In this document: one piece after another, positions 5,979 to 15,195 of the stretch
How the letters are laid out: the number at the start of each line of letters is the position of its first letter
How positions within the stretch are numbered: position 1 is the first letter of the stretch
Source: Actinomycetota bacterium
Lineage (GTDB): Bacteria; Actinomycetota; Acidimicrobiia; Acidimicrobiales; MedAcidi-G1
NCBI GenBank assembly: GCA_014381745.1
Contig: JACNLA010000024.1
Coordinates: 1 to 39,288 of the forward strand
Length of the DNA: 39,288 bases
Direction of reading: 5' to 3'
Program-made: the position numbers and the translations under genes
Notes under the pieces: generated by a model
What the model was told of the DNA's origin: nothing
What the model saw: the letters and a program-made list of their open reading frames with translations, nothing else
Database searches by the model: none

Positions 5979-7052
5979 TTGAGGGCAAGGTACGGGGCCA
6001 CAGGGGCCGAAAGCCATCTCAAGTCACGCCACGTCCAGATCGCCTCCCTTGAAGACGAGGCCGAGGCCATGTTCGACAGGGGCTGGACCGATGGCCTACC
6101 GGTCGTGGCCCCCACCGAGGCCCGTGTCCGGCGAATGCTCGAAGGCACCACACGGAATCCAGCGGATCTCGTCACGGTGGTGCCGCCCGATCTGGTCGAG
6201 TGCACTGTCGAAAAGGTCGCAGTCAATGCAGTCATGGCTGGCTGTCGACCCGAATACCTCCCGGTTGTACTCGCCGCCCTCGAAGCCGTGTGCACCGATG
6301 AGTTCAACATGCACGGAGTTCTTGCAACGACCATGTCGGTCGGACCGGTGCTGGTCGTGAGCGGCCCCATAGCCGACGAGATCGGCATGAACCACGGGAT
6401 CAACGTTCTCGGACACGGCAACCGGGCCAACAGCACCATCGGCCGTGCCGTCCAACTTGTCATCCGCAACATTGGCGGAGGGGCTCCCGGGGGCATCGAC
6501 AGGGCCACCCTCGGCCACATGGGCAAGCAGGGCTTCTGCTTCGCCGAGGACCAGGCCGGCTCACCCTGGACCAGCCTCGCCGAGCAACATGGTTTCGGGG
6601 CGGGCCAGAACACGGTCACGGCATTTGCCGGTGACGGACCTCACCTGGTCATGGACCAGAAGAGCAGATCGGCAGAATCCCTCACCCGGTCGCTGGCCGA
6701 CTCGCTTCTCGGAACGATCTCGTCACGGGTCGTGATGGGCATGGACGCAATGCTCGTACTTTCTCCCGAGCACATGGCCAGGTACCGGGACGCCGGCTGG
6801 GACCGCGCCCGCTTCACCGAAGAACTCTCAAGCCACCTGACGGTCGACGCCGACACCATCATTGCCGGGGCCGGAGGAATCGACGAAGGCCTGCCATCAG
6901 ACTTTGCCGGCATGTCGCTCCCCAAATTCCGACCAGGCGGCCTACTCGTTGTCCACGCAGGTGGTCCGGCGGGCCTCTTCTCAGCCATCATCGGTGGATG
7001 GGTCAACGGCCAGACAGGAAGTGACCCCGTGACGAAGGAGATAACACAGTGA
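5979..7052 (+). CDS. Large uncharacterised partner of the UGSC selenoprotein
   Basis: A 357-residue protein with no function I can name. It opens with a motif I recall from proteins encoded next to UGSC-family genes (GWTDGLPVVAPTEARVRRML, about residues 35-54). A long alpha/beta region follows, with conserved-looking stretches GINVLGHGNRANSTIGRAV, GGGAPGGIDRATLGHMGKQG and an FRPGGLLVVHAGG strand. The only start upstream of residue 31 is TTG 5979, without a good ribosome site; ATG 6069 would remove the start of the conserved part. Its stop overlaps the GTG of the selenoprotein gene by 4 bases (GTGA), so the two are translationally coupled and probably act together. The frame is open back to the TGA that ends the thioredoxin-like gene. 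Confidence 0.8.
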   Translation: MRARYGATGAESHLKSRHVQIASLEDEAEAMFDRGWTDGLPVVAPTEARVRRMLEGTTRNPADLVTVVPPDLVECTVEKVAVNAVMAGCRPEYLPVVLAALEAVCTDEFNMHGVLATTMSVGPVLVVSGPIADEIGMNHGINVLGHGNRANSTIGRAVQLVIRNIGGGAPGGIDRATLGHMGKQGFCFAEDQAGSPWTSLAEQHGFGAGQNTVTAFAGDGPHLVMDQKSRSAESLTRSLADSLLGTISSRVVMGMDAMLVLSPEHMARYRDAGWDRARFTEELSSHLTVDADTIIAGAGGIDEGLPSDFAGMSLPKFRPGGLLVVHAGGPAGLFSAIIGGWVNGQTGSDPVTKEITQ

Positions 7053-7597
7053 CCATCATCAACCCGACCGGCGTTACCGTCCTCGACCCCACGGCCGAAG
7101 GAAGGCCGGCGGGGCGCGACCTGACCGCCCGGGTGGACTCCCTCACCGGCCTTACCGTCGGCCTGCTCGACATTTCCAAGCCCCGCGGCAACGTGTTCCT
7201 TGACCGACTCCAGGAGCACCTGATAAGGCTGGGCGCGGGCGTGGAGCGCTACACAAAGCCCACCTTCGCCAAGCCTGCCCCGGTCGATCTGCGCCACGAA
7301 ATCGCCACGACATGCGACGCCGTAATCGAGGCTCTGGCCGATTGAGGATCTTGTACGACGTGCAGTGTGCACGACATCGACGATCTTGAACGACGGGGAA
7401 TACCCGGTGTGTTCGTCGCCTCCGGACCTTTTCAGGATGCGGCAGAAGTCCAGGCGAACGCCCTCGGACTTCCGGTTCGGCGGGTGTTTGTCGACCACCC
7501 CATCCAGGACAGGACAGACGCGGAGATGTCGGCACTCGCCGATGCCGCCATCGACCTTCTCGTGGCGGCCCTGACCTCCACCCCATCCAACGCATAG
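7049..7597 (+). CDS. UGSC-family selenoprotein (in-frame TGA read as Sec)
   Basis: One 182-residue gene interrupted by TGA at 7343-7345 (codon 99), which I read as selenocysteine. The frame before TGA ends in EALAD; after it the same frame continues G-S-C-T-T-C-S-V-H-D-I-D-D-L-E-R-R-G to a TAG at 7595-7597. This is the D-U-G-S-C-(S/T)-x-C-S-x-H-D signature that names the UGSC family of (seleno)proteins. Residues on both sides match the family's N-terminal (TVGLLDISKPRGNVFLDRL) and C-terminal (GIPGVFVASGPF, RRVFVDHPIQD) parts. Sec99 and Cys102 would form a selenenyl-sulfide-capable U-x-x-C redox pair, with Cys105 nearby. A SECIS-like hairpin follows the TGA. Its GTG start overlaps the upstream partner gene. 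The reaction catalysed is not known to me. Confidence 0.9.
7346..7373 (+). promoter_or_regulatory. Bacterial SECIS element of the UGSC selenoprotein
   Basis: CGTGCA (7359-7364) pairs perfectly with TGCACG (7368-7373) around a GTG loop (7365-7367). The loop starts 19 nt after the TGA and its first base is G. Size, spacing and loop G agree with the known bacterial SECIS consensus: a short stem and small loop within the coding region just after the UGA, with a G near the loop start for SelB binding. Confidence 0.75.
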
Positions 7598-7649: not shown

Positions 7650-8153
7650 GTGGCAGACACAGAGACGATCAATGGTCCAGGTGAGGTCAGGTTGGTGACT
7701 CTGGGTGGGACTTCGCGCCCACTTTCAGAACTGCTGACTACGTTCCACCTGGCCGCCGTGGTGCTCGATCCGTTCACGCACGAGAGTTCATGGCTCCTCG
7801 ATACGGCACGTCGCATCCTCACAGCGTTCAGCGAGGCCGATGTTCGTGTCGCTTTTGTCCTCAGCGGAACCGATGCTGAGGGTGCCGGCAGCTTCATGGG
7901 GCCGCTGGCCGATGAGATCCTGAGCCTTGCCGATCCCGACCGGAGTTTTGCCCGCTCCCTCGGCCTCACGACCCTTCCCGCATTCGTAGGCGTAAGACAG
8001 GACGGTTCCATGATCGCCAGCGCCGAGGGATGGAACCCTGAGGCATGGCGCACGGTGGCGAGCGACCTTGCGGAGTTGACGGCGTGGACCCGACCCGAGA
8101 TTCCAGCACCCGGCGACCCGGCTCCCTATCAGGGAACCCCCGCCTTCTCCTGA
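7650..8153 (+). CDS. Thioredoxin-fold protein without active-site cysteines
   Basis: A 167-residue protein with the thioredoxin/redoxin order of elements: a strand (HLAAVVLDPFTHESSWLLD), a helix, a strand (DVRVAFVLSG), then LADPDRSFARSLGLTTLPAFVGVRQDG with the typical cis-proline segment, and a C-terminal helix. There is no cysteine at all; the place of the CxxC motif is taken by FTHESSW. It is therefore unlikely to exchange disulfides and may act as a binding or scaffold subunit for the neighbouring redox proteins. It starts with GTG, supported by a -10 element 8 nt upstream. No membrane segment or signal peptide is seen. Confidence 0.75.
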   Translation: MADTETINGPGEVRLVTLGGTSRPLSELLTTFHLAAVVLDPFTHESSWLLDTARRILTAFSEADVRVAFVLSGTDAEGAGSFMGPLADEILSLADPDRSFARSLGLTTLPAFVGVRQDGSMIASAEGWNPEAWRTVASDLAELTAWTRPEIPAPGDPAPYQGTPAFS

Positions 8154-13026: not shown

Positions 13027-13410
13027 TCAGCTGACCAGCAACCGGGCTTCCATTCCACCCTCACGGTGCCCGGGGATGTCGCAGTACAGGATGTACCGAC
13101 CGGCACCGAGGTCGATGCTGCCCACGTCGGTGGAACCACCGCTCACCTCCAGGCGGAGGCGATCCTCGTGCCCCTCAACGACAAGCGAGTGGCCCTGCAT
13201 GCCATCGAGCACGTACTGAATGGTTATCTCACCGGGCCTCGCCTCGTACTGCTCGGCATCGAAGTCCAGCGTGTCAAGGGCGATTACACGCAACACCCCA
13301 TCCGCAGGTGGCGACAGGGGTGCCTCGGCACCACCACACGAAACCACCACCCCCGCAAGCAGGACAGCAGCCGCCAGACGGCGACACGGGAAGGCGAATA
13401 CGGCTCTCAT
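13027..13410 (-). CDS. Cupredoxin-domain lipoprotein
   Basis: A 127-residue secreted lipoprotein. It has a positively charged start (MRAVFAFPCRR), a hydrophobic run and a lipobox VVSC with the lipid-modified Cys near residue 25. The mature part is a cupredoxin beta-sandwich with the type-1 copper ligands in order: His in MQGHSLVVEG, Cys in YILYCDIPGH, His in the same motif and Met in REGGMEA. It probably carries electrons or copper at the outer face of the membrane. The gene diverges from the diacylglycerol-kinase-like gene with only 17 bases between start codons, so their promoters must overlap or lie inside the neighbouring coding regions. Confidence 0.9.
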   Translation of the reverse strand: MRAVFAFPCRRLAAAVLLAGVVVSCGGAEAPLSPPADGVLRVIALDTLDFDAEQYEARPGEITIQYVLDGMQGHSLVVEGHEDRLRLEVSGGSTDVGSIDLGAGRYILYCDIPGHREGGMEARLLVS

Positions 13411-13427
13411 ACGCGGTGAGGCTACCG

Positions 13428-14378
13428 ATGAGCGATGATGTATCAGTGACCGAATCCACCGAGAACGATGTCCACGAGGTGGCCCTGCTCGCTAACCCAG
13501 CAGCACACGCAGGTCGGGCCACGCGACATCTGGAGAGGGCACTGTCGCTTCTCAGGGAACGCGACATCGCTGTTGAGCTTCTGGTCGCAGATTCCGCCGA
13601 GGAGAGCACCAGGGCGGTTGAGAGGTCGTCTGCCGGGCGGGTTCTGGTCATGGGCGGTGACGGGACCGTCCACCTGGCGGCCTCCCTCCTGGCCGACACC
13701 AGACGAGTGCTCGGGATCCTTCCCAGTGGCACCGGCGACGATGCTGCGAGGGCGCTGGGCCTCTTGAACGGAAATCTTGAGGAAAACGTGGACATGGCCC
13801 TCTCAGAGCCTCTCGCGATCAACCTCATCAGCGGTGCCGAACGGCCCGTGGTAACAAGCCTGATAGCGGGCTTTCCCACCGCCGTGAACAGCCGGGCCAA
13901 CACCATGAGCTTCCCGCGGGGCACCTCCCGGTACACGATCGCAACGCTCCTCGAGATCCCACGCATGGTTCCCTCTAACTACCGCCTCACCCTCGACGGT
14001 GAGGCAACCGACCTGACCGCGGCAGTCATCGTGGTTGCCAACACGGCCTGGTTCGGTGGTGGCATGGAGATCTGCCCCGAGGCCGACCCGACCGACGGCC
14101 TCATGGACATCTGCGTCGTTGGCGACGTGAGCCGTATCGAGTTGCTTCAGTCGTTTCGTCTCGTCGACACCGGAGCACACGTACACCACCCCAAGGTGTC
14201 GATGTTCAGGGCAGCAGAGGTCTCGCTGGAGTTGCTGGACGCCGGCCCCACAGCAGATCTGCGAGCGGACGGTGAGCTCCTCGGGTGCCTCTCGGCCAGG
14301 GAGCCGGTCGTCGTGCGTGCCGACCGCACGAGCCTGCTCGTAGCAGGCGCTTCGACCAGACCACGCCGTGAGGGCTAA
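13428..14378 (+). CDS. Diacylglycerol kinase-like (YegS/BmrU) lipid kinase
   Basis: A 316-residue member of the DAGK catalytic-domain family, which phosphorylates lipids such as diacylglycerol or related alcohols. An N-terminal strand ends in LLANPAAHAG, the ATP-binding VMGGDGTVHLA lies near residue 75 and GILPSGTGDDAARAL near 100. A C-terminal beta-sandwich follows, containing NTAWFGGGMEICPEADPTDGLMDI and a final DLRADGE motif. ATG 13428 is used; GTG 13446 is an alternative. The Rdx selenoprotein gene follows after 9 bases but has its own -10 element inside this gene's stop region. Confidence 0.9.
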   Translation: MSDDVSVTESTENDVHEVALLANPAAHAGRATRHLERALSLLRERDIAVELLVADSAEESTRAVERSSAGRVLVMGGDGTVHLAASLLADTRRVLGILPSGTGDDAARALGLLNGNLEENVDMALSEPLAINLISGAERPVVTSLIAGFPTAVNSRANTMSFPRGTSRYTIATLLEIPRMVPSNYRLTLDGEATDLTAAVIVVANTAWFGGGMEICPEADPTDGLMDICVVGDVSRIELLQSFRLVDTGAHVHHPKVSMFRAAEVSLELLDAGPTADLRADGELLGCLSAREPVVVRADRTSLLVAGASTRPRREG

Positions 14379-14387: not shown

Positions 14388-14657
14388 ATGGACCAACACA
14401 GCATCGAGATCACCTACTGCGTGCCCTGAGATTATTCACCCCGCGCCGTGAGCGCGGTCAGGGACCTGCTCTCCAACTACCAGCACGTCATCAGCGACCT
14501 GCGGCTGATTACGGGCAGCAAGGGGGTCTACGACGTGCGCGTAGACGGTGAGCTCGTGTACTCAAAGGATGAGACCGACCGCCATGCCGAGGACGGCGAG
14601 GTGCTTGAGATCTTCAGGAAGATCGTCGGCCCGGACGTACCCGTCTTTGGCACCTAG
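14388..14657 (+). CDS. Rdx/SelW-like selenoprotein with CxxU motif (in-frame TGA read as Sec)
   Basis: An 89-residue gene with TGA at 14427-14429 (codon 14), read as selenocysteine. The N-terminus is M-D-Q-H-S-I-E-I-T-Y-C-V-P-U-D-Y, so Cys11 and Sec14 form the C-x-x-U redox motif at the end of the first beta strand. This is the diagnostic position of the SelT/SelW/SelH (Rdx) thioredoxin-like family. The rest fits the fold: a helix (RAVSAVRDLLSNYQH), two strands (ISDLRLITGSKGVYDVRVDGELVYS) and a C-terminal helix (EDGEVLEIFRKIVGPDV). Ordinary calling would start at the GTG after the TGA and lose the active site. A SECIS-like hairpin lies 17 nt downstream of the TGA. Proteins of this kind are thought to act as thiol or glutathione-like oxidoreductases. 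Confidence 0.92.
14430..14457 (+). promoter_or_regulatory. Bacterial SECIS element of the Rdx selenoprotein
   Basis: CCGCGC (14441-14446) pairs perfectly with GCGCGG (14452-14457) around the loop CGTGA (14447-14451). The loop begins 17 nt after the TGA and its second base is G, within the bacterial SECIS rules. Stem length equals that of the hairpin in the UGSC gene. Confidence 0.75.
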
Positions 14658-14778: not shown

Positions 14779-15195
14779 ATGAGCCTCGACGGAACCCAGA
14801 CACACCAGAACCTGAAGGACGCCTTCGCCGGCGAGTCCCAGGCCAACCGGCGCTACCTGTACTTCGCCAAGGTGGCCGACATCGAGGGCTACCCCGATGT
14901 CGCAGGCAATTTCCGCGACACCGCCGACGGTGAGACCGGCCACGCACACGGCCATCTCGACTACATCAAGGGTGTCGGCGACCCGGCCACCGGACTCCCC
15001 ATCGGAGACACCCAGGAGAACCTGGCAGCGGCAGTCGCCGGAGAGACCCACGAGTACACCGACATGTACCCGGGCATGGCCAAGACGGCCCGAGAAGAGG
15101 GCTTTGACGAGATCGCCGACTGGTTCGAGACCCTCGCCAAAGCCGAAAAGGCCCACGCCGGTCGATTCCAGTCGATGCTGGACTCGATCAGCTGA
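14779..15195 (+). CDS. Rubrerythrin (diiron domain only)
   Basis: A 138-residue ferritin-like protein that reduces hydrogen peroxide at a diiron centre in the cytoplasm. The ligand motifs are visible: Glu in [12 protein letters not shown], Glu and His in [11 protein letters not shown], Glu in [13 protein letters not shown] and E-K-A-H in [10 protein letters not shown]. The C-terminal rubredoxin domain of classical rubrerythrins is absent, as in many shorter members, so electrons must come from another protein. The start at 14779 has AGGAG 8 nt upstream. The next two genes, an Fe-S protein and a DUF3501 protein, form a cluster with rubrerythrin in other genomes and may supply electrons. Confidence 0.95.

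Follow-up and report, generated by a model that had tools for sequence, protein, structure and literature searches.

The window, as we call the whole 39,288-nucleotide stretch of DNA analysed here, carries at 14388-14657 on the forward strand what we take, with a probability of about 97%, to be a genuine bacterial selenoprotein gene of the SelW-like (Rdx) family, in which the UGA at 14427 would be decoded as selenocysteine (Sec). Homology of the product, the Sec decoding machinery of the source genome, conservation of the TGA among relatives and a covarying SECIS-like stem-loop behind it were all computed. Judged from its sequence, the read-through frame is not a product of chance, because it exceeds the Pfam and NCBIfam cut-offs by a wide margin and because the TGA recurs in 57 homologues from the order to which the source organism belongs.

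The read-through protein

The frame contains a single in-frame TGA (14427-14429, forward strand) and ends with a TAG stop codon (14655-14657). When the TGA is translated as Sec (U), a protein of 89 residues results, MDQHSIEITYCVPUDYSPRAVSAVRDLLSNYQHVISDLRLITGSKGVYDVRVDGELVYSKDETDRHAEDGEVLEIFRKIVGPDVPVFGT, the Cys of its CVPU (CxxU) motif being encoded by a TGC at 14418-14420 on the same strand. A preliminary description of this DNA had proposed that such a reading restores a complete Rdx protein, and the coordinates, the motif and the family matches given below all agree with it. Read without Sec, the first in-frame start past the TGA is, as that description also held, a GTG located after the active site; it lies at 14448, within the helix that follows, and opens only a short frame. 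By standard annotation, the SelW-like gene of this lineage would be missed or truncated.

The read-through protein matches the Pfam family Rdx (PF10262; 1.4e-16, 60.9 bits, cut-off 22.6) and the NCBIfam model TIGR02174 (CXXU_selWTH; 45.9 bits, cut-off 34.2). Among proteins of known structure, the closest to it in sequence is SAV_2001 of Streptomyces avermitilis (3dex; 1.8e-9), which has the same fold and motif position at ~30% identity, but which carries CxxC and no Sec where the window protein has CxxU. An AlphaFold2 model of moderate confidence (six sequences; mean pLDDT 76.9, pTM 0.68) predicts the order strand-helix-strand-strand-strand-helix, and not the helix-strand-strand-helix arrangement expected in the preliminary description, with CVPU placed after the first strand (residues 5-9) of a thioredoxin-like fold. 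The 21 PDB chains that match the model best belong to six bacterial SelW-related proteins (2fa8, 3dex, 2obk, 2oka, 2p0g and 2ojl), with E below 0.001 for the top match only. Sequence and predicted fold thus both support assignment to the SelT/SelW/SelH (Rdx) family, against which an alignment had been recommended.

This family is already well known. Since SELENOW-like proteins with CxxU are among the most abundant marine selenoprotein families (PMC1088965, PMC2398784), the window gene adds a member to a known family. Those described from the Sargasso Sea and the Global Ocean Sampling (SelW-like, Rdx, PF10262) likewise carry CxxU with one Sec and, akin to the window gene, a SECIS immediately past the UGA (PMC1088965, PMC2398784); we see no essential difference, the window gene being a member from one actinobacterial lineage. 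In the literature searched, no paper joins selenoprotein, selenocysteine and Acidimicrob-, a result that says little.

Conservation of the TGA codon

Genome records yielded six relatives with 64-93% identity, most of them from Acidimicrobiia-type assemblies, and each has the TGA at this site (6/6). Across the order, 57 copies of Rdx were found in 56 of 198 genomes, and each of the 57 has at least one in-frame TGA; neither a Cys form nor a TGA-free Rdx gene, the kind of relative that the preliminary description had set against its own proposal, appeared among these 57 homologues from 198 genomes. Sec and Cys (CxxC) forms of Rdx both occur in the wider phylum, and the pattern by which selenoproteins are recognized, a conserved in-frame UGA that is paired with Cys in other homologues, was found here. 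A tree of 107 rows places the window protein, with good support, in a group of six CxxU members and leaves the Cys forms outside the clade of the order; it was built from few columns, and many of its forks are unresolved. A selA match was present in 54 of the 56 genomes with Rdx versus 65 of the 142 without it (Fisher p = 1.2e-12, uncorrected for relatedness), and the two Rdx genomes that lack a match are fragmented assemblies (520 and 630 contigs).

The alignment of 74 sequences, gathered by their CxxU or UxxU motif, has TGA at this codon in all relatives. Its codons ahead of the TGA are kept as protein (I-x-I-T-Y-C-V-P) and vary most at third positions, the rate of difference being 0.258 at the first codon position, 0.175 at the second and 0.478 at the third. 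These observations weigh directly on the possibility that the TGA really ends translation and that what follows is an Rdx gene that has decayed or lost its N-terminal part and starts from the GTG at 14448. Such a reading would suit the standard code, which leaves just the short frame past the TGA, but it would not account for protein-like conservation upstream of a stop, for a TGA in 57 of 57 homologues or for the Sec machinery of the genome, and we consider it very improbable.

A SECIS-like stem-loop past the UGA

A bacterial SECIS-like stem-loop (CCGCGC-CGUGA-GCGCGG), absent from the preliminary description, lies at 14441-14457 on the forward strand and is supported by covariation, a synonymous-codon control and its fold. 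Its 6-bp stem closes a loop of 5 nt that starts 17 nt past the UGA and has a G at position 2, with a folding energy of -11.2 kcal/mol. All these values lie within the limits of the bSECIS model (an upper stem of 4-16 bp, a loop of 3-9 nt with G among its first two positions, a distance of 16-37 nt to the UGA and an MFE of at most -7.5 kcal/mol; PMC13188914). Taken alone, the window stem-loop is no more stable than its dinucleotide shuffles (z -0.10), so the case for a SECIS is a comparative one. Rfam, applied at gathering thresholds, returned no family in the window.

Across the relatives, 315 of 372 stem cells are paired, compared to 202.9 +/- 7.9 when codons were redrawn synonymously. In the covariation controls, 85.3% of cells were paired and five of the six pairs showed two-sided change; double-changed cells numbered 33 against 12.3 +/- 2.7 expected (none of 500 shuffles reached as many), and stem pairing fell to 19-60% when the partner was slid along. 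Examples of covariation are CGUGC/GCACG in homologue L023 and CUACGC/GCGUAG in L029, where the amino acids differ as well. The comparative set thereby supplies a covarying SECIS for this SelW-like subfamily.

In seven divergent homologues and several others, the outer base pairs of this particular stem do not form. The seven (L069, L071-L073, L076, L078 and L079, with the signature EFCVPU...WAP) have the UGA but lack the common stem, and probably use a different one; GCCGTCGGTCTG is invariant among them and may be part of that other SECIS.

Sec decoding genes in the source genome

The source genome (2.19 Mb, draft assembly of 44 contigs, 96% complete) encodes the full set by which bacterial selenoprotein synthesis is recognized, namely SelA, SelB, SelD and tRNA-Sec, which supports the earlier view that this organism very likely uses the Sec code. 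selA (C16:45680; 3.2e-118, SelA 394.5 bits) adjoins selB (C16:46851; 2.0e-77, SelB 260.1 bits), the same contig carries a gene called by ARAGORN as tRNA-SeC with anticodon TCA (C16:32864), and selD lies on another contig (C8:12185; 2.3e-110, SelD 368.2 bits), all three protein matches being over the cut-off. This actinobacterial lineage is accordingly equipped to decode selenocysteine. SelD (L010:1492-2430) is itself a selenoprotein, with a TGA in frame within the loop of its active site (HGAGUGCKLAP).

UGA has been reassigned in some bacteria, and it could be argued that here, too, it stands for a standard amino acid or is read through without selenium. This is about as improbable as a true stop: TGA terminates ordinary genes of the window, for example the gene at 5979-7052 and, at 15193-15195, the rubrerythrin gene, and tRNA-Sec, SelA, SelB and SelD are present together with a covarying stem-loop after the UGA. 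In light of the conserved TGA, the Sec machinery and the stem-loop, we rejected both a pseudogene and a reassigned UGA. Least credible is a sequencing error by which TGC or TGT was misread as TGA, a thought invited by the draft state of the assembly (44 contigs), and it was rejected since relatives already refute it, the TGA recurring at the same codon in independent assemblies, including single-contig genomes.

Decoding of the UGA as selenocysteine would proceed by recognition of the stem-loop just past it by SelB with Sec-tRNA(Sec), placing Sec at position 14; we infer that this insertion takes place in the cell. The product would be small and thioredoxin-like, with its first strand followed by a Cys-x-x-Sec active site, and would most likely act as a thiol/selenol oxidoreductase. 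In such a protein, a disulfide, peroxide or sulfenic acid would be the oxidised substrate that Sec attacks, and the selenenylsulfide would then be resolved by Cys 11. For bacterial SELENOW-like proteins in general, the substrate is unknown (PMC13188914, PMC1088965).

A variant with two in-frame UGA codons

In a related family of the same order (f36), the codon corresponding to the TGC of the window gene is itself a TGA in 16 of the 20 genomes that have the gene, two of the 16 being single-contig genomes. The resulting UVPU motif is encoded by TAT-TGA-GTT-CCT-TGA, with GTC-CCT in one case (loci L052/L082-L097; genomes G119, G150, G176, G200-G210, G213 and G214). In the tree, the 16 UVPU proteins cluster together (support 94/73) within the CxxU proteins, and the variant apparently had a single origin. 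With its two UGAs 9 nt apart, the loop would start ~26 nt from the first, inside the limit of 16-37 nt. The UVPU lineage has an interruption in the 6-bp stem, which refolds with a bulge, making the SECIS there less certain than that of the window. We consider it quite likely that these genes encode a SelW-like protein with two selenocysteines, for which one stem-loop would serve both UGAs and which may form a diselenide.

Comparable UxxU forms of SELENOW, from the same family, are reported from amphioxus and the green alga Ostreococcus lucimarinus (PMC7539508); these are eukaryotic, and the window's own protein is CxxU. A 2026 review of prokaryotic selenoproteins gives SELENOW-like only as CxxU, with one Sec (PMC13188914). 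Given the forms in amphioxus and Ostreococcus, the UVPU proteins of f36 would, if true, be a separate, bacterial occurrence. They raise two questions: how a single bacterial SECIS could act on a pair of UGAs spaced 9 nt apart, and what a diselenide would do in the SelW fold.

Neighbouring genes

On the same strand, the Rdx gene is directly preceded by a YegS/diacylglycerol-kinase-like gene (13308-14378), which stops 9 bases short of the Rdx start, and directly followed by a rubrerythrin gene (14779-15195), a possible redox neighbour. All same-family loci checked preserve the sequence of genes diacylglycerol-kinase-like, Rdx, rubrerythrin and FeS protein, which was not seen at the loci checked in other families of the order. 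Because the arrangement was seen in one family only, synteny cannot name a functional partner, and a link between Rdx and rubrerythrin is only a suggestion.

The second Sec gene that had been reported nearby is also real: a UGSC-family selenoprotein gene occupies 7049-7597 on the forward strand, with its TGA at 7343-7345. The gene at 5979-7052 overlaps it with its end, and a Redoxin-like gene (7650-8153) comes next.
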